From Candidatus Eiseniibacteriota bacterium (GTDB taxonomy: Bacteria; JAFGKV01): a DNA stretch of 15,629 bases. The stretch is from the NCBI GenBank assembly GCA_025453925.1, contig JALOPK010000036.1, positions 1 through 15,629 of the forward strand, in the 5' to 3' direction. The notes under the pieces were generated by a model that saw only the letters and a program-made list of their open reading frames with translations, was not told where the DNA came from and ran no database searches. Numbering within the stretch: the stretch's first letter is position 1; every line of letters starts with the position of its first letter. Of the stretch, positions 16 to 15,604 are shown in pieces. A program made the position numbers and the translations under genes.

Positions 16-56
16 CGTGCCCTACGCCATGCGCCCTTGGATTGCCCTGCGATGAG

Positions 57-63
57 AGGGGAG
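57..63 (+). promoter_or_regulatory. Ribosome binding site that decides the methyltransferase start
   Basis: The sequence aggggag is followed by a 6-nt spacer and GTG at 70. The in-frame upstream candidates TTG 37 and ATG 52 have no purine-rich stretch at the right distance, so GTG 70 is preferred. Confidence 0.55.
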
Positions 64-69
64 AACACG

Positions 70-1107
70 GTGTGGTCGAGACTCGGCGTCATGATGGCTG
101 AAACGGGGCGCATGCCGGACGCGGTGCTCCGCAAGGGCATGCGGAGGATGCTCAGTGCGTCGCTGCGGGAGCGGCGGCCCGAGGATTCCAGGGCCCGGGA
201 AGCGATGGTCAGTAGGCTGGTGGAGCAGTTGAAGCAAAGCCCGATTGCCCTGACTCCTGATGCCGCCAATCGACAGCACTACGAGTTGCCTCCCGAGTTC
301 TTCACCCTCGTTCTTGGGCCCTACGTCAAGTACAGCTGCTGTCTCTGGGAACCGGGGACGGAATCGCTGCAAGCGGCCGAGCGTTCCATGCTGGAGCTCG
401 CCTGCCGACGGGCCCAGATCGGTGACGGCATGCGCATCCTCGACCTGGGCTGCGGGTGGGGCGCCCTGTCGGTCTGGATGGCAACGCAGTACTCCCGCTC
501 GCTTGTCACGGCAGTGACGAACTCGAGGCTCCAAAAGGAGTTCATCGAGTCACGGGCAGCCGCTGTAGGCCTCGGAAACCTCTGCGTTGTCCATGCGGAT
601 GTGCAGGACTATCAACCCGGTGAACGATTCAATCGGGTGGTGTCCATTGAGATGTTCGAGCACGTGCGGAACTATGCCGCTTTGCTGGGGCGGATCAGAG
701 TGTGGTTGGAGGACGAAGGCTTGCTCTTTGTGCACCACTTCTGCCACCGCGACACGCCCTACACCATCGAGGTCGAAGACCCGCGCGACTGGATGGCCCG
801 CCATTTCTTCACCGGAGGACTCATGCCATCCGAAGACCTCCTGAGTCACTTCCAGGCTGACCTCACCATCGCGAACAAGTGGTCGGTCTCCGGGATGCAC
901 TACGCCCGCACCCTGCGGACATGGCTTGACAATCTGGATTCCCGCCGAGATGAGGTGATGAGGGTGCTGCAGGGGCACTACGGCAGTGCTGAGGCGCCGG
1001 TATGGCTGGCGCGCTGGCGGATGTTCTTCATGGCGTGCGAGGAGTTGTTCGCATACCGTGACGGCGCGGAGTGGTACGTGGTGCATCACCTGTTTCGTCG
1101 ACGTTGA
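70..1107 (+). CDS. SAM-dependent methyltransferase, CFA synthase / coclaurine N-methyltransferase-like
   Basis: This is a 345-aa cytosolic class I methyltransferase. The SAM-binding motif I LDLGCGWG is at residues 124-131, preceded by the family block YELPPEFF (71-78) and the cysteine pair in KYSCCLW (87-93). SIEMFEH (192-198) holds Glu194, Glu197 and His198, the spacing I recall for the catalytic residues of plant coclaurine N-methyltransferase. VHHFCH (221-226) and HYARTL (277-282) match the bicarbonate/tyrosine region of cyclopropane synthases. The protein lacks the extra N-terminal domain of E. coli Cfa, whose length is about 380 aa. The substrate cannot be read from the sequence: a fatty-acyl phospholipid or a small amine are both possible. 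GTG 70 is chosen because of its Shine-Dalgarno sequence; TTG 37 or ATG 52 would add 11 or 6 residues. The gene stands alone, with the next gene 347 nt downstream. Confidence 0.88.
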
Positions 1108-1454: not shown

Positions 1455-3125
1455 ATGCGCCGACTGATGCTCCTTTTCCTGACCGCGCTTTTGGCTGTCA
1501 ATGCCGATGCGGCACCGCCTCCCGCACGGCTTCTCGCCTCACCGGCATTCGATGATGCCGGCTATCGCTCCGCGTATCGGGATGCCAAATCCCGGGGTGT
1601 TGATGCACCCAATCCGCGCTTCGGCCCCAATCGGAGGCCATTCGGTCCCGAAGGCGTGATCAGCAGCGCGCATCGAGACGGCAGCATGAACGTGCCCATC
1701 TTCCTGGTCGATTTCCCCGACAACGTGCAGGCGTCGGCGGCCTCCTTCTTCGATTCCCTCGGGTATGCCCACACGACGTTTTCCCTGGCCCGGTACTACG
1801 GCGAGGTCTCCTACGGCCAACTCGAGATCGGGACCGTTGATTGGCCCTCGGACGTAGGATGGACCAGGGCACCCCACACGTATGCGTACTATGTCGACGG
1901 GTATTATGGCTGGGGCACGTATCCCCAGAACAGCCAGGGCCTCTGCGCCGATGTCTGCAGCGCCGTGGACGGCGTCGTGAACTTCGCGGACTATGACAAT
2001 GACGGCGACGGCATCGTTGACGGCGTCAACATCATCTTCGCCGGTCCGTTCGACGGAACGCCCAACTCGATCTGGCCCCATGCCTGGTCACTGCCGGGCA
2101 ACGGCGCGCTTCACGACGGCGTGTGGGTGCAGGCATACTCGGTACAGGATGAGTACAACAACACGCCGGGCGATCAATCGGCCGACGTGCTGTGCCACGA
2201 GTTCGGCCACGTGCTGGGACTGCCCGACCTCTACGACTACGGCTATGACTCCTGGGGTGTCGGCGAGTGGTGCCTCATGGGGTGGGGCGTATACAACGGC
2301 AATGGCTGGAGCCCCGCGCACCTGAGCGCGTGGTGCCGGGCGGCGCTGGGGTTCGTGGAGCCCCTGGTGGTCACGACCGACGACTGGTACACGATCCCCG
2401 CAGTGGAACAGGACGGAACCATCTATCGTCTCTGGACCCAGGGCCAGCCCTCATCCCAGTACTTCTTGGCGGAGAACCGACGACCCATAGGGTACGACGC
2501 CGCCCTACCGGGGCACGGCATCCTGATCTGGCACGTCGACGACTCGGTTGGCAGCAACGACAACCAATGGTATCCCGGGTATACCCAGTACGGCCACTTC
2601 CACGTTGCCCTGGAGCAGGCGGATGGGTTATGGCAACTCGAGAAATACATGAGCGCGGGCGATGGCGGTGACCCGTACCCAGGCACCGCGGTGAACAGGT
2701 CGTTCACTGCAGCGACAACGCCAAGCAGCCGCGACTATGCCAACAACGACACGCAATGCGCCGTGGAGTCGGTCCCGAATTCGGCGAACAGCATTGAGGC
2801 CTACCTGCGCGTGGGCGTGCCCGGAGGCCTCGACCCCATGGCCCTCACCCTCCAGCTCATCAGTCAGGGCACTGCGCGGCTCTCCTGGGCACCGGTAGAG
2901 AATGCTGCGGTCTATGACATCTGGCGGAGCGCGTCCCCGCGATTCCCGGCGCACCAGACACCATGGCAGACAGTCGGCGCGCCCGGGGTCGCCCTTGATC
3001 TCACCGCCGGCATCGGCGATGCCTCCCTCGACTTTTTCTACGTTGGCCGGGCGCGGAGCGGTGTGTCGTTGTCGCCGCTCTCCAACATCGTCGGCGAGAC
3101 GGACTTCGAGCTCACGGTGCCGTAA
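1455..3125 (+). CDS. Secreted M6-family (immune inhibitor A-like) zinc metalloprotease with FN3-like tail
   Basis: The product is 556 aa. Residues 1-19 form a signal peptide (MRR, hydrophobic core, ADA-A cleavage region), so the protein is exported. The zinc site HEFGHVLGLPD (248-258) gives His248, Glu249, His252 and the third ligand Asp258, the HExxHxxGxxD form of M6 peptidases. CLMGWG (273-278) supplies the Met-turn. DYDNDGDGIVDG (179-190) is a DxDxDG calcium-binding loop, often seen in this family. HGILIWHVDD (354-363) is the conserved strand after the catalytic domain. Residues about 465-556 look like a fibronectin type III fold, with LSWAPVENAAVYDIWR and a terminal SNIVGETDFEL. No T9SS sorting domain or C-terminal anchor is evident, so the protein is probably released outside the cell. 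The last 14 nt overlap the convergent GNAT gene. Confidence 0.92.
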   Translation: MRRLMLLFLTALLAVNADAAPPPARLLASPAFDDAGYRSAYRDAKSRGVDAPNPRFGPNRRPFGPEGVISSAHRDGSMNVPIFLVDFPDNVQASAASFFDSLGYAHTTFSLARYYGEVSYGQLEIGTVDWPSDVGWTRAPHTYAYYVDGYYGWGTYPQNSQGLCADVCSAVDGVVNFADYDNDGDGIVDGVNIIFAGPFDGTPNSIWPHAWSLPGNGALHDGVWVQAYSVQDEYNNTPGDQSADVLCHEFGHVLGLPDLYDYGYDSWGVGEWCLMGWGVYNGNGWSPAHLSAWCRAALGFVEPLVVTTDDWYTIPAVEQDGTIYRLWTQGQPSSQYFLAENRRPIGYDAALPGHGILIWHVDDSVGSNDNQWYPGYTQYGHFHVALEQADGLWQLEKYMSAGDGGDPYPGTAVNRSFTAATTPSSRDYANNDTQCAVESVPNSANSIEAYLRVGVPGGLDPMALTLQLISQGTARLSWAPVENAAVYDIWRSASPRFPAHQTPWQTVGAPGVALDLTAGIGDASLDFFYVGRARSGVSLSPLSNIVGETDFELTVP

Positions 3126-3699
3126 CGCCCGCAAAGCAAGGCGTTCCCCCGCCTTCGTGGCGCCCTCGCCATTCCCGTTGGAGCATCGCGTACACGTACT
3201 CGCTGGTCCACTCGCCCTTCAGCCAGTGGCTCTCCACGTGATGCGCTTCCCTGCGCATGCCGACCCGTTCCAGTAGCCTCGCCGAGGGGGCATTCTCCGC
3301 GTCGCAGATCCCGATCACCCGGTGGAGGTCAAACTCGTCGAACAGGTAGCCCAGCAGCCGCGCCACCGCCTCGGTGGCATACCCGTGGCCCTGATGTCGG
3401 CGCGCAAGAGTGAACGCCACCTCCGCCTGGCGCGGATCCTCCGCCAGAATGTGAAAGGCGCAATCACCCACCATCCGCCGGCTCGAACGCACGACAATGG
3501 CGAGCTGATACCATTGGCCGGGCTCTCCGGGTTCCTTGGCGCGCATGTCTCGCATGAAGGCAGCCGCCTTGTCGCGGGGATAGGGAGCAACCCATGACTG
3601 ATACCGGGCGACCTCAGAATCGGACCGGTAGGCGCAGAATGGCGCAAGGTCCGACTCGCAAAAGGTGCGGAGGATCAGGCGGCGTGAGTCAAGTTCCAT
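3112..3699 (-). CDS. GNAT-family N-acetyltransferase (RimJ/RimL type)
   Basis: The product is 195 aa. It opens with LDSRRLILRTFCESDLAPF (3-21), the usual RimJ/RimL-like start. The acetyl-CoA pyrophosphate loop is RRHQGHGYA (100-108), in the R/QxxGxG/A form. ENAPSARLLERVGMRRE (135-151) is the conserved motif B region. It transfers an acetyl group from acetyl-CoA to an amine, but the acceptor is unknown. ATG 3699 is chosen because it has a gaggg Shine-Dalgarno and begins the conserved domain; in-frame codons further upstream lie inside the phosphatase gene. It starts 7 nt after the phosphatase stop, so the two are probably co-transcribed. The last 15 or so residues (after QREWRGR) lie beyond the usual domain and run into the convergent protease gene. 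Confidence 0.88.
   Translation of the reverse strand: MELDSRRLILRTFCESDLAPFCAYRSDSEVARYQSWVAPYPRDKAAAFMRDMRAKEPGEPGQWYQLAIVVRSSRRMVGDCAFHILAEDPRQAEVAFTLARRHQGHGYATEAVARLLGYLFDEFDLHRVIGICDAENAPSARLLERVGMRREAHHVESHWLKGEWTSEYVYAMLQREWRGRHEGGGTPCFAGVTAP
3124..3145. terminator. Weak hairpin overlapping the metalloprotease stop codon
   Basis: The arms aacgcc (3124-3129) and ggcgtt (3140-3145) enclose a 10-nt loop, followed by ccccc rather than T. It begins inside the TAA stop of the protease and lies within the 3' coding end of the opposing GNAT gene. It is the only candidate terminator between these convergent genes, and it is weak. Confidence 0.2.
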
Positions 3700-3706
3700 G
3701 GCGCCC

Positions 3707-4513
3707 TCAGCCGCAGGCGAAATCAGCAGGCGCCGGCTCGAGCAGCAACTCGCGCAGCCGCTTCTTCTCGACGTCCGTGACCTTGAGACCCTCCTCGACG
3801 TATGCATCGAAGCTGCCGTGCCGGCGGGTCATCTCATCGAACGCGGCCTCGACATACTCACGGCGAGCTTCGAAGAGCGGAAGCACTCTCTCGGTAGAGA
3901 CCCCCAAGACGGAGAAACGCCGGAGCCGCCGCGTGATGTCGCGCCGGAAGGCCGTGAAGTGGTCATTCGAGCACAGGTAGTCGCCCATGATCGCCTCGGG
4001 CGACGCCCCGAGGACCCTGTGGATCAAAACGCAGGCGAGCCCCGTGCGGTCCTTGCCCGCGGTGCAGTGAATGAGGATGGGGAGATGCTCTGGATCGGCC
4101 GTCAGTCGGAGCACCGCCGCCAGCTCGGCGCCGAAGTCGGCAACGTACTCTCGGTAGACCTCCTCCATGACCTCGTCGAACCGCATGCGTCGCGCCTTCC
4201 CGAATACCAGCGAACACAGTTGCGCGAAGACACCCGAATCGTCGTGGTGGCGCGATTTCATCGGAATGTGGCGGTACGTGATGCCGAAGGAAGAAGGCAA
4301 CCGGTCGGGGTGCCGGCGGCGCTCGCTCTTCGTGCGCAGATCACAGATCAGCCTGATCCCCAACGCACCGAGTCCAGCAACGTCGTCGTCCGAGGCCGTT
4401 GCCAGACTGCCGCTTCGAAAGAGCAGGCCTCGTCTGACGCGAGATCCGTCTGAGGTCTGATATCCCCCGAAGTCTCGGAAATTGTGGATTGACTCCACCG
4501 TACTCCTCACCAT
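3707..4513 (-). CDS. PtpB-like tyrosine / phosphoinositide phosphatase (Y_phosphatase3 family)
   Basis: The product is 268 aa. HNFRDFGGYQT (10-20) and RSGSLATASDDDVAGL (33-48) are family hallmarks. The CX5R P-loop HCTAGKDRTG (149-158) gives nucleophile Cys150 and Arg156. Its lysine, in HCxxGKDR, is typical of Mycobacterium PtpB-like enzymes that also act on phosphoinositides. CDLRTKSE (57-64) probably holds the general acid Asp58. There is no signal peptide, so it is predicted cytosolic, although PtpB relatives can be secreted by other routes. ATG 4513 begins just before the conserved domain but has a poor Shine-Dalgarno. GTG 4498 has aggag 4 nt upstream and is a real alternative. The reading frame stays open further upstream, to 4732, but that extension is low-complexity Arg/Ser/Pro-rich sequence. 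It is first in a probable two-gene operon with the GNAT gene. Confidence 0.88.
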   Translation of the reverse strand: MVRSTVESIHNFRDFGGYQTSDGSRVRRGLLFRSGSLATASDDDVAGLGALGIRLICDLRTKSERRRHPDRLPSSFGITYRHIPMKSRHHDDSGVFAQLCSLVFGKARRMRFDEVMEEVYREYVADFGAELAAVLRLTADPEHLPILIHCTAGKDRTGLACVLIHRVLGASPEAIMGDYLCSNDHFTAFRRDITRRLRRFSVLGVSTERVLPLFEARREYVEAAFDEMTRRHGSFDAYVEEGLKVTDVEKKRLRELLLEPAPADFACG

Positions 4514-4585
4514 GTTCACAGCATGTAGGGCTGCCCGAGAGGCAGCCGGCGAGACACGCGCGCCTGCCGATATGCGGATGGATGC

Positions 4586-4614
4586 GGAATGCAGACCGGC
4601 GCGGCTCTTGTCAA
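4586..4614 (-). promoter_or_regulatory. Weak promoter candidate for phosphatase-GNAT operon
   Basis: On the minus strand a perfect TTGACA (4614-4609) is followed after 17 nt by cattcc (4591-4586), a poor -10 box. The expected leader to ATG 4513 would be about 65 nt. The exact -35 is the only strong element. Confidence 0.22.
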
Positions 4615-4723
4615 GGGTGGCTGGACGAGGAGATCCGGAGGGAGATCGGCCCGGCGGCCCGGGACGCCCGCCGGAGACGCGGCTCCTCGCCTTCTTGACG
4701 AGGCACGACATGGCCCGATGCCC

Positions 4724-4773
4724 GGTCGTCACGGGACCCGGCCACTGGACCGCACACCATGGTCGTCACGACC
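4724..4773. promoter_or_regulatory. Repeated operator-like element upstream of the desulfurase promoter
   Basis: The 10-mer ggtcgtcacg occurs at 4724-4733 and again at 4761-4770, 37 bp apart. The second copy continues into a 13-bp palindrome, ggtcgt-c-acgacc (4761-4773), which ends 14 nt before the -35 box at 4788. This arrangement would suit a transcription factor binding a full site and a half site. Confidence 0.35.
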
Positions 4774-4875: not shown

Positions 4876-6042
4876 TTGAAGAATCTCATCTATCTGGACA
4901 GCGGCGCGACATCGTTTCCGAAACCCGAAGAAGTCTATGTCTTCATGGACCATTTCTATCGCAACTTCGGCGTCAATCCCGGCAGGTCCGGCTATGACCT
5001 CTGCATGGAGACGGGATCACTCGTTGAGAAGACGCGGAAAATGCTCACGGAGTTCTTCAACGGCACCGATCCGAACCGGCTCTGCTTCTCCTACAACTCC
5101 ACCGATGCCCTCAACCTGATCATCTTCGGCACTCTGAAAGCCGGCGATCACGCGATCACCACCAATCTCGAGCACAACTCCGTGATCAGGCCGCTCTACC
5201 ACCTCTGGCAGGACGCCGGCGTAGAAGTGGATCACGTGCCGTTCGACAGGAAGGGATTCGTTCATCCCGACGACTTCCGGGCGCGATTCAAGCCGAACAC
5301 CAAACTGGTGGTCATGAATCATGCCTCCAACGTCATCGGCACGGTGCAGCCGATCCGAGAGATCGGCCGGCTGTGCCGGGAGCACGGCGTGCTGTTCGCC
5401 ATTGACGCATCGCAGTCGGCCGGTGTCGTGCCCATCGACATGGAGAAGGACTTCATCGACCTGATCGCCTTCACGGGCCACAAGTCGTTCATGGGGCCCA
5501 CGGGTATCGGCGGCCTCTATGTCCGCGAGGGAGTTGAGGTGCGTCATACCCGGGCCGGAGGCACCGGCGTGCGGTCCGCGGTCAAGACCCATCTGTTCGA
5601 GTACCCGTACCGTCTGGAATATGGCACGCCGAATGTCCACGGCATCGCCGGGCTGAATGCCGGGCTCAAATGGGTTCTGGCTCAGGGTATGGAATCGATC
5701 CACGAGAGGGAGATGCACCTTTGGACCATGCTCCGCGACGGGTTGCGGGCCATCGACCGCGTCGTCCTCTATTGTCAGGATGAGGCGACTGACCATATCA
5801 GCGTCTTGGCCTTCAATGTCGAAGGCATGGAAGCCGGCAACGTGGGCACGATCCTGGATGTCGACCACAATATTGCCTGCAGGACCGGGCTCCATTGCGC
5901 CCCATTGGTGCACGAACAGCTCGGCACTGTTCCCTTGCACGGCGCCGTGCGGTTCGGCATCGGTCCGTTCAATACCGAGGAACACATACAGGCGGCCATT
6001 GAGGGCGTGCGGGAGATCGCCGGCATGCAGCGGAAGAAGTAG
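4876..6042 (+). CDS. Cysteine desulfurase family protein (class V aminotransferase fold)
   Basis: The product is 388 aa, full length for the family. This PLP enzyme releases sulfur from cysteine as an enzyme-bound persulfide, giving alanine. IYLDSGATSFPKP (5-17) is the N-terminal signature. His100 in NLEHNS stacks on PLP, DASQSAG (177-183) holds the PLP-nitrogen aspartate, and Lys203 in TGHKSF forms the Schiff base. Cys341 in RTGLHCAP is the sulfur-accepting cysteine. TRAGGTGVRS (225-234) and GAVRFGIGPFNTEEHI (356-371) point to the branch annotated simply as cysteine desulfurase family protein (TIGR01977-like) rather than IscS or SufS. No scaffold gene (iscU, sufU or sufE) is adjacent. The next gene, 57 nt downstream, is dsrC, which suggests that sulfur is handed to DsrC. 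Selenocysteine lyase activity is an alternative. Confidence 0.92.
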   Translation: MKNLIYLDSGATSFPKPEEVYVFMDHFYRNFGVNPGRSGYDLCMETGSLVEKTRKMLTEFFNGTDPNRLCFSYNSTDALNLIIFGTLKAGDHAITTNLEHNSVIRPLYHLWQDAGVEVDHVPFDRKGFVHPDDFRARFKPNTKLVVMNHASNVIGTVQPIREIGRLCREHGVLFAIDASQSAGVVPIDMEKDFIDLIAFTGHKSFMGPTGIGGLYVREGVEVRHTRAGGTGVRSAVKTHLFEYPYRLEYGTPNVHGIAGLNAGLKWVLAQGMESIHEREMHLWTMLRDGLRAIDRVVLYCQDEATDHISVLAFNVEGMEAGNVGTILDVDHNIACRTGLHCAPLVHEQLGTVPLHGAVRFGIGPFNTEEHIQAAIEGVREIAGMQRKK

Positions 6043-6099
6043 AGCGTCGCCAGCCCCATCCTCACCACGCGACACCATCAGGCACTGAAGGGAGTACTC

Positions 6100-6420
6100 A
6101 TGGGCAGCATCGAGATCAGCGGCCATAGCGTCCAGCTCAACGAAGAGGGCTTTCTGCAGAATCCCGGTGAGTGGAACCGGGACGTCGCCGCCGAGCTGGC
6201 GCGCACCCAGGAGGGCCTTGATGCCATGACCGATGAGCACTGGTCGGTCGTCAACTACATCCGCGACTACTACCTCGAGCACAACCTGGCGCCCATGGTC
6301 CGCAAGATCTGCATGACCACCGGTCTAAAGCTGACCCGCATCTTCGAGTTGTTCCCCTCGGGTCCCGCCAAGGGCGCCTGCAAGGTCGCAGGGCTCCCAA
6401 AGCCCGACGGCTGCGTCTAG
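6100..6420 (+). CDS. dsrC: DsrC-type sulfur carrier protein
   Basis: The product is 106 aa, the normal DsrC/TusE size. IEISGHSVQLNEEGFLQNPGEW (4-25, read in parts) is the N-terminal domain start. The C-terminal arm GPAKGACKVAGLPKPDGCV has Cys94 and the penultimate Cys105, separated by 10 residues. Having both cysteines is the mark of true DsrC, which can form an intramolecular disulfide or a trisulfide; TusE keeps only the penultimate one. In dissimilatory sulfur metabolism DsrC is the physiological partner of DsrAB and of the membrane complex DsrMKJOP. Here it sits between a desulfurase and DsrM/DsrK-like genes, so it probably carries sulfur from the first and is a redox partner of the second. 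The start at 6100 is supported by aaggag-like purines (aagggag) 5 nt upstream. Cys71 is an additional, less conserved cysteine. Confidence 0.93.
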   Translation: MGSIEISGHSVQLNEEGFLQNPGEWNRDVAAELARTQEGLDAMTDEHWSVVNYIRDYYLEHNLAPMVRKICMTTGLKLTRIFELFPSGPAKGACKVAGLPKPDGCV

Positions 6421-6442
6421 ACCCGCCCGTGGCCCGGCTCCC

Positions 6443-7069
6443 ATGACCCTGCTGACCTGGGGCGTCGTCGCCTCGGCGGGCATCTGCCTGGCGGCACTCA
6501 CGTCGCTGGTCGTGCGCACGTTCTCGTTCCGGCATGCGCCCCTGCTGGCCGCACCACAGGGCAGCGCGCGCCGGGGCATCATCTACGCGTTCGGCGCGGG
6601 CATGCTTCCGTCGGCCAAGGAAAGCGCCCGCGATCACCTCCCCGTGTACGTGACGGGTATGCTGTACCACGCGGGCATCTTTTCGGGGCTGCTGTACCTC
6701 CTCCTCGCCGTGCTGGGCATCCTGCCGGCGACGCTCGCCGCATTGCTCCGCATCCCCGTGGCGCTGGGCGCGATGGCAGGGCTTGCCTTGATGGGGCGAC
6801 GGATGATGGTGACGCACCTCCGGCAGCTCAGTTGTCCCGATGACTTCGCGGCGAACCTCATTGTGGACGTGTTCCTTGTGGCCGCGGTGGTTGATTCTCT
6901 TCTTCCGGCAGCGCGGGCACCTTTCTACCTGGTCGCCATCCTCATGTTCCTCTACATCCCCGCCGGCAAGATCCGCCACTGCTTCTTCTTTTTCTACATG
7001 CGCGTCCTGTATGGTCTGTTCTTCGGCCGCAGGGGCGTGCTCCCCCATCGAGGCGTCCATGAAACCTGA
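6443..7069 (+). CDS. DsrM-like membrane cytochrome b subunit (NarI-type)
   Basis: The 208-aa protein is largely hydrophobic, with about five membrane helices at roughly 5-25, 67-95, 97-120, 135-155 and 157-195, where the last stretch may be two. DHLPVYVTGMLYHAGIF (64-80) resembles the NarI/DsrM/TmcC cytochrome b region. Candidate heme-ligand histidines are His65, His76, His125 and His179. Such subunits bind heme b and exchange electrons with menaquinone, passing them to or from an HdrD/DsrK partner. That partner is the next gene, whose start overlaps this one by 11 nt, which suggests translational coupling. DsrM proteins are usually longer, so this is a short version, but it has a clear start and stop. 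ATG 6443 lacks a strong Shine-Dalgarno; 22 nt separate it from the dsrC stop. Identification rests partly on context. Confidence 0.75.
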   Translation: MTLLTWGVVASAGICLAALTSLVVRTFSFRHAPLLAAPQGSARRGIIYAFGAGMLPSAKESARDHLPVYVTGMLYHAGIFSGLLYLLLAVLGILPATLAALLRIPVALGAMAGLALMGRRMMVTHLRQLSCPDDFAANLIVDVFLVAAVVDSLLPAARAPFYLVAILMFLYIPAGKIRHCFFFFYMRVLYGLFFGRRGVLPHRGVHET

Positions 7070-8423
7070 GTCGATTACCGCAGGCCCGCTGGAGGGCCGC
7101 GTGGATGCTTTGGGTAGCGATGATCTTGCTCGTGCCCTGGAGGAATTCCGGGCGGTGATGACGCGGGATCATGCCGCGGCGCTGGCCTCGTGCGTTCACT
7201 GCGGCCTCTGCGCGGAAACCTGCCACTACTACCTCGCAACGAGACGGCTTGACGCCATCCCCGCCTACAAGCTGGGGCTTGTCGCCAGCGTGTTTCGCCG
7301 GCATGAAGGCCTCCTGGGCAGGCTAGCACCGGGATGGGCCGGCGCCCGATCGCTGAACCGCGAGACGATCAAGGCATGGATCGATGCCTTGTTCGGGCGC
7401 TGTTCACTCTGCGGGCGATGCGCCCTCAACTGCACGATGGGAATCAACATCACTGCGGCGATTCGTGCCGCGCGGGGGGTGCTGGCGGCTTTGGATCTGG
7501 TGCCTCCCGGCCTGAAGTCAACGGTGGACACCGCCCTGACCAAGGGCAACAACATGGGGATTGCGGAACAGGACTTTGTCGAGACCCTGGCCTGGTTGGA
7601 GAGCGAGATGCAGAGCGAACCGGGGTTCGAGACGGCGGCGATGCCCGTCGAACAGACGGGTCGTTCCCTGCTGTACACCCTGAATCCCCGGGAGGTGATG
7701 TTCTTCCCGCTCTCCATCGTCGCGGCGGCGAAGATCTTCCACGCCGCGGGCGAGAGCTGGACGTTCTCGAAAGACGGGTTCGACGTCACCAACTACGGGC
7801 TCTACGATGGCTCCGACGAACACGCGGGGACCATGTCGAATAGGCTGGTGCAATCGCTGGAACGGCTGAGAGCGAAGACTTTGGTCTTGGCAGAATGCGG
7901 CCACGGCTACAACTCCAACCGCTGGGAAGCCCCGCAGTGGCTTGACCGGCGCTACCCCTTCGAGGTGAAGAGCATCCTCCAGGTGGTCGCCGGCTATCTC
8001 CGGGAGGGGAAGATCAGAGTTGACCCCTCGCGAAACACCCAGCCGGTCACGCTCCACGACCCGTGCAATCTGGTGCGTCTGGGAGGCATCGTGGAGGAGC
8101 AGCGCTATTTGCTGCGCCATGCGGTGAGCGACTTCCGGGAGATGACGCCCAACCGCGAGCACAACTACTGCTGCGGAGGAGGAGGCGGGCAGCTCGCCAT
8201 GACCAACTATGCCGACCGCCGGCTCGAGGCGGGCAAGATCAAGGCAGACCAGATCCGACGAACCGGGGCCAAGATCGTGGCGGTTCCATGCCACAACTGC
8301 ATCGATCAGCTCATGGAACTCAACAAGCACTACCAGCTCGGCGTTGAATTGAAGACGGTCTGCGAACTGGTGGCCAATGCCCTGGTCGTGGAGACTCCCG
8401 CCGTTCTTTCGAAGCCTGCATAG
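7059..8423 (+). CDS. DsrK-like / HdrD-like iron-sulfur oxidoreductase
   Basis: The product is 454 aa. Two [4Fe-4S] ferredoxin motifs, CVHCGLCAETC (45-55) and CSLCGRCALNC (115-125), are followed by CCG-domain sequence. The C-terminal CCG domain is complete: Cys336 in HDPCN, Cys371-Cys372-Gly373, and CHNC (411-414), the catalytic cluster site of HdrB/HdrD/DsrK. The earlier CCG repeat is reduced to LAECGHGYNSN (278-288), the degenerate form I associate with DsrK. The enzyme would reduce or oxidise a disulfide or trisulfide, most likely on the neighbouring DsrC, using electrons from the DsrM-like subunit. ATG 7059 is chosen because gagg lies 5 nt upstream and it overlaps the previous stop in a coupling arrangement. 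The open frame runs further upstream to 6840, but only as an out-of-frame reading of the DsrM-like gene. It is predicted to sit on the cytoplasmic face of the membrane. Confidence 0.88.
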   Translation: MKPESITAGPLEGRVDALGSDDLARALEEFRAVMTRDHAAALASCVHCGLCAETCHYYLATRRLDAIPAYKLGLVASVFRRHEGLLGRLAPGWAGARSLNRETIKAWIDALFGRCSLCGRCALNCTMGINITAAIRAARGVLAALDLVPPGLKSTVDTALTKGNNMGIAEQDFVETLAWLESEMQSEPGFETAAMPVEQTGRSLLYTLNPREVMFFPLSIVAAAKIFHAAGESWTFSKDGFDVTNYGLYDGSDEHAGTMSNRLVQSLERLRAKTLVLAECGHGYNSNRWEAPQWLDRRYPFEVKSILQVVAGYLREGKIRVDPSRNTQPVTLHDPCNLVRLGGIVEEQRYLLRHAVSDFREMTPNREHNYCCGGGGGQLAMTNYADRRLEAGKIKADQIRRTGAKIVAVPCHNCIDQLMELNKHYQLGVELKTVCELVANALVVETPAVLSKPA

Positions 8424-8462: not shown

Positions 8463-11174
8463 ATGACATCCATGACATCCCGCGATCGTCCGCCGTGGGC
8501 CCTGTCGGCCGAGGATCTCGCCTCGATCCTCGGCACGAATCTGGAGACAGGGCTCCCGCCCGCGGACGCCGCCGTCCGCCTCAGGGAACACGGCCGCAAC
8601 GAGCTGACGGAGCAGAAGGGGCGGGGCCTCTTCATCCAGTTCCTCGGTCAATTCAACAACTTCATGGTGTGGGTGCTCATCGGGGCCGCCCTCGTTGCGG
8701 GCATTCTCCAAGAGTGGGTCGACACCGCGGCCATCATGGTCATTGTCATCCTGAATGCCATCATGGGTTTTGTCCAGGAGCACCGGGCCGAGAAGGCCCT
8801 CGCCGCCCTCCGGCGGCTCTCCAGCCCCGTGGCCAAGGTACGGCGCGGGGGTGCCGCCGTGCAGATTCCGGCCGGAGAAATCGTTCCGGGCGATCTGGTG
8901 GAGTTGGAGGCGGGTGATGCCATACCTGCCGACGCACGAATCACGTCGGCCACCAGCGGGTTTACGGTGCAGGAGGCAAGCCTGTCCGGCGAGTCTCAGC
9001 CCGTTGCCAAGACGGCCGGGGCGCTGGCGCGGGAGGATACTCCCCTGGCGGACCGGCGGAACATGGTGTTCACAGGGACTTCGGCACTGGCGGGCAAGGC
9101 CCGGGCACTCGTCGTCGCCACCGGGATGCAGACGGAACTGGGTCGCATCGCGGGGATGCTCCACGAGGTGGGCCACGAACAGACGCCATTGCAGCGCCGG
9201 CTCGCACGTTTCGGCCGCGTCCTGGTCTACGTGTGCCTGGCACTCGTTTCGGTCATCTTCCTCGTTGGCTGGCTCCACGGAAGACCATTGCTCGACTCAT
9301 TTCTCTCGGCAGTAAGCCTCGCAGTGGCGGTCATCCCTGAAGGTCTGCCGGCCGTGGTGACCATCGCGCTGGCGTTGGGTGTGCATCGCATGGTCCGGCG
9401 CAACGCCCTGGTCCGCAAACTCCCTTCGGTGGAGACCTTGGGCTGCGCGACGGTGATCTGTTCCGACAAGACCGGCACCCTGACCCGCAACGAGATGACG
9501 GTTCAGGCAGTATACACGGGCCATCGGATGATGGAAGTCTCTGGGGTCGGGTATGAACCCGTCGGGGTGTTCTCCACTGACGGCGACCCAGTGGACCCTT
9601 CAGACGACCCTGACCTTCTGCACACCCTTGTGTGCGGCACGCTCTGCAATGGAGCCGGCCTCGCCGAGAAGGACGGCACGTGGCACATCGTCGGTGATCC
9701 CACCGAAGGCGCACTTCTCACGGTCGCAGGCAAGGCCGGTTTTCCCAAGGCCCAGCTTGAGGCGACGCATCCTCTGGTCGAAGAGATTCCGTTTGATTCC
9801 GAGCGCAAGCGAATGACGATGATCCGGCGTTCGGAAGACACCCTGGTAGCCTATGTGAAGGGTGCCCCCGATCTCCTGCTCGAGCACTGTTCCAGGATCC
9901 TGGAGCACGGAGTCATCCGCTCCCTCGATGCCGGCGACCGCGCACGCATCACCGAGGCCAACGCAGTCCTTACGCGTCGAGCCCTCCGGGTGCTATGCGC
10001 CGCATATCGTACCCTGGAAGCTCCGGGGCCTTTCACTGCAGAGGTCGAACATGACCTGGTCTTCGCCGGCCTCCTGGCGATGATCGATCCTCCCCGCGAG
10101 GAGGTGAAGGCCGCCGTCACGCTCTGCAAGGGCGCCGGCATTCGCACCGTAATGATCACGGGTGATCATCAGAACACTGCCGAGGCGGTGGCGAAAGAAC
10201 TGGGGTTCTTTGACGCCGCGTCGTATGCCGTGAGCGGCGAAACCCTTGAACAGATCGACGATGAGGAACTGTCTCGGTCGGTTGACCGTATCACCGTCTA
10301 CGCACGGGTCTCGCCTGAGCACAAACTCCGCATCGTGAGGGCATGGAAGAGTCGAGGGGATATCGTGGCCATGACCGGCGACGGGGTGAACGACGCGCCT
10401 GCGGTGAAGGAGGCGGACATCGGCATCGCCATGGGGATCACCGGCACCGACGTGACCAAGGAAGTTTCCGACATGGTGATCACCGACGACAACTTCGCCT
10501 CTATCGTGTCGGCGGTGGAAGAAGGTCGCGGCATCTACGACAATATCCGCAAGTTCGTGCACTACCTCCTCTCCTGTAACTGCGGCGAAATGCTGGTGAT
10601 GCTGATTTCGTCGCTGGCGGGAACCGCGGTGCCGCTGCTCCCGATCCAGATCCTCTGGGTCAATCTGGTCACCGACGGACTCCCGGCGCTGGCTCTGGGC
10701 GTGGATCCCATCGACCCCCTCGTCATGCGTCGCCCGCCCCGTCCGCCGCAGGAGCCTCTCATCAACCGGCCGACGCTGTGGCTCATCCTCTACCAGGGAC
10801 TGGTCATCGCGCTCTGCACACTGGGTGCGTTCTTCGTTGTGCAGCGCAACGGAGGATCACTCCGTGAGGCGCGCACCGTGGCCCTGGCGGTGCTCGCGGG
10901 TACTCAGCTCTTCCACGCCTTCAATTGCCGGAGCCAGACCGCATCGCTGTTCAAGGTGGGCATCCTCACCAACCGCACGCTGGTGTTCGCCTTCCTGGGT
11001 TCCTTCGTCCTCCAGGTAGCCGTGATCTCATTGCCTGGTGTACGGGACGTGTTCAAGACGCAACCGCTGACGTTTGCGCAGTGGGGGATTGTGATCGTTA
11101 TCTCCTCGATCCCCTTCTGGGCCGGCGAACTCCGCAAGCTCATCGGCCGACGACTGGCCGTAGTGGCCTCGTGA
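8463..11174 (+). CDS. Ca2+-transporting P2A-type ATPase
   Basis: The product is 903 aa, full length. SGES (175-178) is the actuator loop and DKTGTLT (335-341) holds phosphorylated Asp335. KGAPD (466-470) binds nucleotide, and TGD (567-569) and GDGVND (639-644) complete the P domain. Membrane ion ligands match SERCA: Glu293 in PEGLP (M4), Asn706 and Glu709 in SCNCGE (M5), and Asn734, Thr737 and Asp738 in VNLVTDG (M6). The M8 position, glutamate in SERCA, is Gln815 in TQLFHAFN, as in plasma-membrane Ca2+ pumps and several bacterial ones. That argues for one Ca2+ per ATP. Its likely role is Ca2+ export across the cytoplasmic membrane; Mn2+ is possible. ATG 8463 has ggagaa 7 nt upstream; a second in-frame ATG in a tandem atgacatcc repeat lies at 8472. 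The 39-nt gap suggests it belongs to the upstream operon. Confidence 0.93.
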   Translation: MTSMTSRDRPPWALSAEDLASILGTNLETGLPPADAAVRLREHGRNELTEQKGRGLFIQFLGQFNNFMVWVLIGAALVAGILQEWVDTAAIMVIVILNAIMGFVQEHRAEKALAALRRLSSPVAKVRRGGAAVQIPAGEIVPGDLVELEAGDAIPADARITSATSGFTVQEASLSGESQPVAKTAGALAREDTPLADRRNMVFTGTSALAGKARALVVATGMQTELGRIAGMLHEVGHEQTPLQRRLARFGRVLVYVCLALVSVIFLVGWLHGRPLLDSFLSAVSLAVAVIPEGLPAVVTIALALGVHRMVRRNALVRKLPSVETLGCATVICSDKTGTLTRNEMTVQAVYTGHRMMEVSGVGYEPVGVFSTDGDPVDPSDDPDLLHTLVCGTLCNGAGLAEKDGTWHIVGDPTEGALLTVAGKAGFPKAQLEATHPLVEEIPFDSERKRMTMIRRSEDTLVAYVKGAPDLLLEHCSRILEHGVIRSLDAGDRARITEANAVLTRRALRVLCAAYRTLEAPGPFTAEVEHDLVFAGLLAMIDPPREEVKAAVTLCKGAGIRTVMITGDHQNTAEAVAKELGFFDAASYAVSGETLEQIDDEELSRSVDRITVYARVSPEHKLRIVRAWKSRGDIVAMTGDGVNDAPAVKEADIGIAMGITGTDVTKEVSDMVITDDNFASIVSAVEEGRGIYDNIRKFVHYLLSCNCGEMLVMLISSLAGTAVPLLPIQILWVNLVTDGLPALALGVDPIDPLVMRRPPRPPQEPLINRPTLWLILYQGLVIALCTLGAFFVVQRNGGSLREARTVALAVLAGTQLFHAFNCRSQTASLFKVGILTNRTLVFAFLGSFVLQVAVISLPGVRDVFKTQPLTFAQWGIVIVISSIPFWAGELRKLIGRRLAVVAS

Positions 11175-13942: not shown

Positions 13943-15604
13943 TCAGGAAACAGCGCCTGACTCCCCCGCACTCAACCGCCGTATGGCGACCAGGGTCATG
14001 TCGTCGTGGAGGGGCCTCCCGCCGTGAAACGCCTTGACGCCATCCTCGATGGCCGTGAGCAGGGCGGCGACGGGAGCACTCCGGTTGTCCGCGACCATTC
14101 TGGCGAGCCGATCATCTCCGAGCTCTTCCTCCTCATCGTTCATGGCCTCGGTGGCGCCGTCGGTATAGAAGAGGACGAGGTCGCCCGGGTTCAGGTGCAG
14201 AACGCGTTGGTCGTACATCGCGCCCGGAAAGACGCCGACCAGTAATCCCGTGGCAGGAAGGCGCGTGACATTGCCGTCGTAGGCACACACCAGCGGCGGG
14301 TCATGCCCTGCATTCACGTAGCTCAGGGTCGCTGTTGCCGGATCGTACAGCGCAACGAAGAGGGTGATGAACAGGTCATCGGGCGTGTTGTCATGGATGA
14401 GCGTGTTGATCCGGGCCACCACCTCGGCCAATGACAGCCCAACCCCGTTCATGGCCCGAAGGGCGGCCTGGAGGTTAGACATGATCAGCGCCGCGCCCAA
14501 CCCCTTTCCCGTGACATCGCCCACGGCCAGGAGCGTCCTCCCATCGGCAAGGGCGATGACATCGTAGTAATCCCCGGCAACATCGCCGCAAAACCGGATC
14601 CGGGCCGCGCTCTCCAGCCCTGGCGTCGGGGGGAGCTCGCGGGGCATCAATCCCTCCTGTATGCCCCTGGCCATGCGGATCTCGTCATCCAGCCGCTGTC
14701 TTTCGGTTCTCTCCTCGAGCAGCTCGATGGTTTCGGCCACCAGTGCGATTTGCGGCGAGAGTGCGCGCAGTATCTCCAACTCCTCGGGAGTGTAGTCATC
14801 GCCCGAGAGCCGTTCACCCACCACCAGGAAGCCCCGGAGCCCCGACACGGTCTCCAGAGGGACGATGAGCGCCGCGGCCCGCTCGGCGAGCCATGCCTTC
14901 TGCGGGTCGGTGAGAGGAATGCGTCCGCTGGCAACCATCTCGTCTACCAGCAGAGGGTGTCTCGCGTTCAGGAGCGCCTGGCCGAACTGATCACCCGCCT
15001 TGAAGGGAGCCAGCTCACAGCATTCCACGGCGTAGACAAGCGCATCCCGGCGCCGGAGCAGCGGGAAGACCGCGCTGGCCCCGATGCTGTCGCGCAGCCG
15101 TCGCGCCAGCTCCGTCCAGAACGCCCGGCTCACATGCGACTGCAGGAGGAACTCGTGCAGCGTCGCCTGCAATCGAAGTCGCTCCGGGTAGATGCGATTC
15201 TCCAGCGAGCGTCGAAGTGAGCGCTGCGCGGGAAGGAAACCGAACGCCAGAACCATGGCGATGGCAATGGGAGGAACGTCGCCGCCAATGCCCAACAGCG
15301 GCAACAGGCGGGAGGATCCGAGGTAGATCAGAGCGCAAACAAGAAGCAGCACAAGAACTGCCCCCCCGGTCACCAAGACGAGCCGTGTGCCCCGCTTCAA
15401 CCGGGATTCCACCTCCAGCAACCGGTACTTGCCGAAGGCGTACGCGACGGAAACCGGGATCAGCAGAAGGAGGAGTGAAGTACCATTCAGGATGTAGAGT
15501 TTGGTGACATAGGGGAGTGCTTGATACCAGGGCCCGCCCGCGGCGGCCGCCCAGCCGGTCACGAGCTGGGCGAGCAGGGCGGGCGCTGATCCCCACAACA
15601 CCAA
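13943..15604 (-). CDS. Membrane-anchored GAF and SpoIIE/RsbU-type PP2C serine/threonine phosphatase, 5' end doubtful
   Basis: As read from TTG 15604 the product is 553 aa. Residues 38-58, 74-96 and 109-125 are hydrophobic, including LLLLLIPVSVAYAFGKYRLLEVE (44-66, read in parts), a membrane-exit motif I associate with multi-helix signalling proteins. A GAF-like domain follows at about 150-295. A helical linker with MARGIQEGLMPRELP (311-325) leads to the PP2C domain, as in RsbU. Metal-binding aspartates appear in GDYYD (344-348), VGDVTGKG (361-368), YTDGATE (480-486) and HDDMT (533-537). Such phosphatases dephosphorylate anti-sigma-factor antagonists in partner-switching stress or regulatory pathways; no such partner gene is in the window. 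The start is uncertain: the homologous region seems to continue upstream as RRQTR, but an in-frame TAG lies at 15622-15620. The gene is either truncated, broken or affected by a sequence error. Confidence 0.85.
   Translation of the reverse strand: MVLWGSAPALLAQLVTGWAAAAGGPWYQALPYVTKLYILNGTSLLLLLIPVSVAYAFGKYRLLEVESRLKRGTRLVLVTGGAVLVLLLVCALIYLGSSRLLPLLGIGGDVPPIAIAMVLAFGFLPAQRSLRRSLENRIYPERLRLQATLHEFLLQSHVSRAFWTELARRLRDSIGASAVFPLLRRRDALVYAVECCELAPFKAGDQFGQALLNARHPLLVDEMVASGRIPLTDPQKAWLAERAAALIVPLETVSGLRGFLVVGERLSGDDYTPEELEILRALSPQIALVAETIELLEERTERQRLDDEIRMARGIQEGLMPRELPPTPGLESAARIRFCGDVAGDYYDVIALADGRTLLAVGDVTGKGLGAALIMSNLQAALRAMNGVGLSLAEVVARINTLIHDNTPDDLFITLFVALYDPATATLSYVNAGHDPPLVCAYDGNVTRLPATGLLVGVFPGAMYDQRVLHLNPGDLVLFYTDGATEAMNDEEEELGDDRLARMVADNRSAPVAALLTAIEDGVKAFHGGRPLHDDMTLVAIRRLSAGESGAVS

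Follow-up and report, generated by a model that had tools for sequence, protein, structure and literature searches.

A conserved cysteine desulfurase-DsrC gene set with a cytochrome-b-like and CCG protein pair in uncultured anaerobes

Described DsrC systems and the window locus

Cysteine desulfurases bind sulfur as a protein persulfide. In DsrC the cysteine CysB is the site of sulfur binding, and pairs of the DsrMK type reduce (or oxidise) the bound sulfur. In the IscS-TusA-TusBCD-TusE thiolation relay a desulfurase feeds a DsrC-family protein, TusE, which has CysB without CysA. Here we analyse a contig of 15,629 bases (the window; contig C341 of the G000 assembly, which comprises 3.9 Mb in 502 contigs and is 82% complete), in which four genes lie head to tail on one strand (+, 4876-8423) and encode a desulfurase, a DsrC, a membrane protein and a CCG-domain iron-sulfur protein. 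We refer to this gene set as the module. Unlike in the Tus relay, its desulfurase is the direct neighbour of DsrC, no Tus intermediates lie between them, DsrC has two redox cysteines and a membrane reductase is present. The desulfurase belongs to the TIGR01977 (EF2568-like) family, over its cut-off, but differs from these enzymes and from the selenocysteine lyase SclA, for which its score is under the cut-off, by its pairing with DsrC.

DsrC is regarded as loaded by DsrAB or DsrEFH (PMC10504309; PMC13188885; PMC3397948). DsrMK without JOP occurs in some microbes, and assemblies with DsrMK but no DsrAB have been mentioned (PMC10504309), so that a DsrMK without dsrAB is not new in itself. The module resembles the DsrC-DsrMK(JOP) system of sulfite and sulfate reducers in having a two-cysteine DsrC and a membrane pair of a cytochrome-b-like and a CCG protein, but the DsrAB domain was not found in the module genomes searched, the CCG protein scores below the DsrK cut-off and a desulfurase stands in the loader's place. 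HmcEF and TmcCB of sulfate reducers are a comparable subunit pair with the nearest NCBIfam scores (298 and 267 bits), whereas the module CCG protein lies below both cut-offs in a separate clade and no other Hmc or Tmc subunit was seen alongside. Isp1/Isp2 of Isp-type [NiFe] hydrogenases is of the same two-subunit type and in some Aminicenantia may take over the part of the module pair, but it is bound to hydrogenase subunits and is not adjacent to DsrC. The initial annotation suggested that this use of the parts may be undescribed, and in a partial coverage of the literature we found no published description of the desulfurase-DsrC gene set.

Linkage of the module genes and the sulfite reductase search

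All four of the consecutive same-strand genes initially proposed were found as open reading frames, and their families were assigned by Pfam and NCBIfam profiles (Table 1). The start of the CCG gene (7059) overlaps the end of the membrane-protein gene (7069) by 11 nt. The nearest named relative of the window is the Candidatus Fermentibacteria metagenome-assembled genome (MAG) JAFGKV010000224 (L002), with a CCG protein identity of 90%; the window host is a Candidatus Fermentibacteria-like MAG, and L002 is a second Fermentibacteria MAG with the module. DsrC was not found in a 98%-complete genome of the window's family.

Table 1. Features annotated in the window, module genes first.
Feature	Positions	Strand	Remarks
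Cysteine desulfurase, class-V aminotransferase	4876..6042	+	TTG start; TIGR01977; RTGLHCAP loop Cys341, PLP lysine K203
DsrC-family sulfur carrier	6100..6420	+	CysA = C94, CysB = C105
208-aa membrane protein, DsrM/HmcE/Isp1/NarI-like	6443..7069	+	His76, His179 kept in relatives
Iron-sulfur protein with CCG domain, separate clade of the DsrK/HmcF/TmcB/Isp2 superfamily	7059..8423	+	
Ca2+-type P-type ATPase	8463..11174	+	Directly downstream of CCG gene; module membership uncertain
CMAS-family methyltransferase	37-1107		No visible link to module
M6 peptidase	1455-3125		No visible link to module
GNAT acetyltransferase	3112-3807		No visible link to module
Y_phosphatase3	3707-4732		No visible link to module
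SpoIIE/GAF phosphatase	13943-15604		No visible link to module

The four genes are a conserved unit, linked beyond chance, and the linkage is near certain. The window, L002 and a Bacteroidetes contig (L013) share the complete set in one and the same order. Six Aminicenantes/Acidobacteria loci (L004, L007, L008, L009, L011 and L012) have a run of DsrC, membrane subunit and CCG protein with a convergent desulfurase right behind it. L019, a locus of the Aminicenantes/Acidobacteria type, has no readable DsrC, and at L005 and L006, which have sufficient flank, the desulfurase is not nearby, yet it is present elsewhere in their genomes. To count the genes more widely we surveyed 142 Aminicenantia genomes with profiles built from the module alignments, counting the CCG protein at more than 400 bits. 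Module-type DsrC was present in 81 genomes, module-type desulfurase in 85 and both in 78 (Fisher 1.6e-27, ignoring shared ancestry), and the two genes lie within 4 kb of each other in 68 of the 142. The CCG protein was found in 61 genomes, 60 of which also have module-type DsrC, and most genomes in which the module genes are apart still hold all of them. Because the Fisher test ignores ancestry and the neighbourhood around the pair is largely shared synteny within Aminicenantia, more weight attaches to the finding that gene order and orientation differ from phylum to phylum. The expectation that the desulfurase is kept beside dsrC in relatives thus holds in three phyla.

We searched 17 genomes for PF01077 (NIR_SIR), the domain common to DsrA, DsrB and the assimilatory enzymes, with control genomes positive in 11 of 14 cases. 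No match over the cut-off was obtained in 13 module genomes, with one sub-threshold match in G067; the domain is absent from G000, from G001 (94% complete), from G002 and from 10 of the 11 other module genomes. The only clear matches came from G072, a genome of Chloroflexi in which the related pair adjoins TusA, not DsrC. No module genome has a second strong DsrK-family protein, all non-module matches scoring at most 97 bits; dsrJOP was not searched by name. The negative searches of G000 and of a same-genus genome agree with the initial report of a locus without dsrAB, and we reject the view of the module as a displaced piece of a dsrAB operon. Together with the linkage across phyla, these genome searches support the proposal that desulfurase, DsrC and membrane pair are conserved as a module in which dsrAB has no part. 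Next to the module DsrC no TusBCD set was seen. The initial annotation had called for a genome check of tusA and dsrE: TusA matches were found in G000 on contig C254, beside a second desulfurase, while the DsrE family gave a single, weak match.

The Ca2+-type P-type ATPase gene directly downstream is also close to desulfurase-DsrC in L002, L125-L127, L169, L178 and L179 (several of them Aminicenantia), and whether it is part of the module is uncertain. A 908-aa gene after the L014 CCG protein, considered as a counterpart of this ATPase, is alike by length and was rejected by its sequence, which is unlike that of an ATPase.

Properties of the module proteins

The identification of a pyridoxal phosphate (PLP)-dependent cysteine desulfurase is upheld by a TIGR01977 score of 429.1 bits against a cut-off of 377, and the GHK motif with the PLP lysine K203 and the loop Cys341 are invariant across ten aligned sequences. 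The score for SclA (NF040779) is 303.2 bits, under the cut-off of 525. The second TIGR01977-type desulfurase of G000, on C254 behind a TusA-like gene, is 44% identical to that of the window; the window enzyme is therefore a separate copy kept with DsrC. Besides the TusA-like gene and this second desulfurase, the C254 region (L144, 5937-8238) holds what by eye resembles a fragment of DUF3343 and the start of a further TusA-like gene. The G000 genome thus seems to contain, apart from the window, a cluster of the selenium type.

DsrC was likewise correctly described as a two-cysteine protein. It scores 119 bits for PF04358 and 106.3 bits for TIGR03342 (cut-off 53.5), aligns full-length with solved DsrC chains and has both C-terminal cysteines, as in redox-type DsrC, whereas its score for TusE (NF008562) is 70.4 bits, under the cut-off of 191. 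Among the 54 DsrC copies read, CysB is invariant and CysA is kept in 49, the remaining five having Ala and all coming from large-genome Aminicenantes. One of this CysA-less subclade (L008) has no other cysteine, and the desulfurase is close by all the same. In some Aminicenantia (L129, L141) long open reading frames appear to fuse the CCG protein or DsrC to other sequence; these are not fusions but genes whose frame runs on spuriously upstream, the DNA being GC-rich. A second DsrC type in Aminicenantia was considered as a classical dsr locus and rejected, no dsr operon being seen in the seven DsrC-holding loci read. In these (L200, L201, L205, L206, L207, L208 and L209) DsrE2 comes next, and several have an upstream FAD protein that by eye is like sulfide:quinone oxidoreductases.

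No Pfam family matched the 208-aa membrane protein, and its sole profile match was HmcE at 21 bits. Its AlphaFold model (pLDDT 84) is mostly helical with long helices, and NarI of NarGHI accounts for every one of the best eight Foldseek matches (probability ~1.0, TM ~0.5, E only 0.03-0.08), which suggests that the protein likely shares the NarI-type fold. His76 and His179 are kept in 12 of 12 sequences compared (module, HmcE, TmcC, Isp1 and Chloroflexi) and are probable haem b ligands, fitting a bis-histidine haem.

The CCG protein has a PF13183 ferredoxin-type dicluster domain and one PF02754 CCG domain, both over their cut-offs, and the CCGGGGG motif with its flanking Cys is invariant in 15 sequences. 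Its model (pLDDT 87) is matched by Foldseek to EtfD over the whole length and to HdrB and LUTA in part. The scores for HmcF (NF045711, 298.1 bits, cut-off 750), TmcB (NF045724, 267 bits, cut-off 735) and DsrK (NF045796, 233.6 bits, curated cut-off 400) are all under the cut-offs and place the protein nearer HmcF and TmcB than DsrK. In a tree of 32 CCG relatives, among which there was no verified DsrK, the proteins of the module group on a single branch (100/99), and HmcF, TmcB, Isp2 and the TusA-linked proteins of Chloroflexi fall outside it. As judged from these sequences, the 'DsrMK' pair of the module makes up a clade of its own and does not belong to DsrK in the strict sense. Thus the proposed DsrM/DsrK-like pair stands as regards the CCG superfamily domains and the cytochrome-b-like partner, and not as DsrK itself. 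Both Fermentibacteria CCG proteins nest within the Aminicenantes/Acidobacteria group, as expected if the unit had moved between phyla, suggesting a transfer of the module. A separate recruitment of a second DsrC-adjacent CCG clade (~45% identical) was also considered and not retained; the free tree separates the two clades, and a joint clade was not rejected (p-AU 0.29).

A related pair occurs in the Isp-type [NiFe] hydrogenases, which have the gene order hynS-isp1-isp2-hynL (PMC8551704). An Isp-type hydrogenase locus is present in 14 of the 21 genomes that have desulfurase and DsrC without a CCG protein over 400 bits, compared with 2 of the 57 other genomes. The Isp1/Isp2 pair of these 14 genomes, which are probably one lineage, is located elsewhere and does not adjoin DsrC. 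This distribution suggests that a hydrogenase-linked Isp1/Isp2 may replace the module pair. Complete Isp loci contain the hydrogenase small subunit, Isp1, Isp2 and the large subunit together with DsrE2, DsrE, a GcvH-like protein, a lipoate ligase and TusA. At L138, L139 and L185-L199 (Aminicenantia) the hydrogenase is accompanied by TusA, DsrE2, DsrE, a lipoate ligase and proteins resembling GcvH and SpoIIAA, which ties it to sulfur carriers and possibly to a lipoate-binding carrier. In Chloroflexi, an HmcE/HmcF-like pair follows an ArsR-like regulator (by eye) and TusA (L018, 4951-8237), in one case with DsrE2 ahead of TusA (L016, 6961-10257), TusA occupying the place that DsrC has in the module. 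The Bacteroidetes module contig carries DsrE2, TusA, FlpD-like and FAD/ferredoxin protein genes on the opposite strand (L013, 1-2345).

A possible route from cysteine to sulfide and its alternatives

We tentatively favour the view that the genes form a dedicated cysteine-sulfur reduction module, in which the desulfurase loads DsrC, the membrane pair reduces the carrier and sulfide is released. The desulfurase would move the sulfur of L-cysteine into a persulfide on its loop Cys341 and from there to CysB (C105) of DsrC, acting as a loader that replaces DsrAB or DsrEFH. The membrane pair, a cytochrome-b-like protein and a CCG disulfide reductase, would then feed electrons to the DsrC persulfide or, alternatively, to the DsrC disulfide remaining after attack of CysA on the persulfide; in some lineages the Isp-type hydrogenase pair may supply the electrons instead. 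Sulfide would be freed and DsrC regenerated, with the net reaction cysteine + 2 e- + 2 H+ -> alanine + H2S, and fermenting anaerobes that have no sulfite reductase could use it to obtain sulfide or to dispose of electrons. The persulfide transfer, the reductive direction, the sulfide product and the electron donor are what we infer here. A reductive direction is favoured because an oxidised carrier has no known outlet without sulfite reductase. If sulfide is made, a cysteine synthase would be expected nearby, and in five genomes (L131, L153, L160, L161 and L162) the run of genes with DsrC includes a cysteine synthase-like gene (PF00291) adjacent to the convergent desulfurase, which fits sulfide as the product. 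The L131 copy has a cysteine-rich C-terminus.

Several observations weigh against this proposal. In 24 genomes desulfurase and DsrC are together with no module-type CCG protein within 4 kb, so that the two may work without the membrane part. The replacement of CysA by Ala in five DsrC copies means that a CysA-CysB disulfide step cannot be general; in this branch either the carrier works on CysB alone or the function has changed. Side by side, the cysteine synthase and the desulfurase could also form a cycle or point to a different substrate, and the synteny shared within Aminicenantia means that these genomes are not independent counts. An ordinary respiratory unit would further require that the hosts make quinone and haem, and most of those tested lack the synthesis genes looked for. 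MqnC and MenD gave no match over the cut-off (matches below it being treated as paralogues) in G000, G001 and most of the Aminicenantia tested that bear the module, among them G076 and G077, both with one contig of about genome size; the exceptions are MqnC in G061, G067 and G070 and MenD in G062 and G182. HemB is absent from the 28 genomes tested, G000 included, except G061, G067, G068, G072 and G084. G000, G001, G002, G076, G077 and others lack both HemB and MqnC/MenD over the cut-off, and the module-bearing genomes of this set still keep the cytochrome-b-like protein with its conserved histidines. The electron donor and cofactors are therefore unexplained unless scavenged; the cells may obtain haem and quinone from outside, or the pair may dispense with quinone. 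Energy conservation at the membrane, as first envisaged, is made doubtful by the lack of these genes in Fermentibacteria and in most module-bearing Aminicenantia tested.

The survival of the desulfurase-DsrC linkage without a membrane pair nearby would also suit a biosynthetic relay, in which desulfurase-loaded DsrC passes sulfur to an acceptor, for example in TusE-like tRNA thiolation, and the membrane pair keeps the cysteines reduced or is optional. The five DsrC copies with CysB and without CysA, as in TusE, agree with such a relay. We consider it unlikely, though still a serious alternative, given that the window DsrC is under the TusE equivalog cut-off (70 vs 191 bits), that both redox cysteines are present in 49 of 54 copies, that no TusBCD was seen beside DsrC and the sole DsrE-family match in G000 is weak, and that 60 of the 61 genomes with the CCG protein have module-type DsrC. 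DsrMK-type pairs are held to run oxidatively in sulfur oxidisers (PMC10504309), and the membrane pair could by analogy take electrons from a DsrC thiol or persulfide, giving a disulfide or trisulfide, and pass them to a membrane acceptor. This appears improbable in genomes that have no NIR_SIR domain to convert the oxidised carrier into sulfite and mostly miss the menaquinone genes, and the cysteine synthase of the five gene runs better suits sulfide production.

It is very improbable that the module handles selenium, with the desulfurase acting as a selenocysteine lyase and DsrC as the selenium carrier. SclA is a relative of the window enzyme, but at 303 bits the score is below the cut-off of 525, and the second desulfurase of G000 does lie behind a TusA-like gene, an order that we take to be a selenium-cluster arrangement; this neighbourhood belongs to the C254 copy, not to the window enzyme. 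Least probable of all, the genes might be neighbours through shared synteny or transfer and have no joint function. Other genes, such as a FolK-like gene, are also kept around the pair in Aminicenantia, but the linkage recurs in three phyla with differing orders and orientations, and genomes with the genes apart mostly retain all of them.

Taken more broadly, and put with somewhat greater reserve than the module reading itself, a DsrC loaded by a desulfurase and a membrane- or hydrogenase-linked CCG reductase could constitute a sulfite-independent cysteine-to-sulfide pathway in at least three phyla of uncultured anaerobes, with haem and quinone imported or unused. The occurrence of the linked set in several fermentative groups without sulfite reductase points to a possible second way of using DsrC. 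DsrC and DsrMK-like genes are often taken as signs of dissimilatory sulfur metabolism, and since the module ties them to a desulfurase in genomes without sulfite reductase, such annotation can mislead. In sediments and digesters, sulfide could arise from cysteine by a route that has gone unrecognised, and the module makes it possible to test for loaders and unloaders of DsrC other than DsrAB and DsrEFH.

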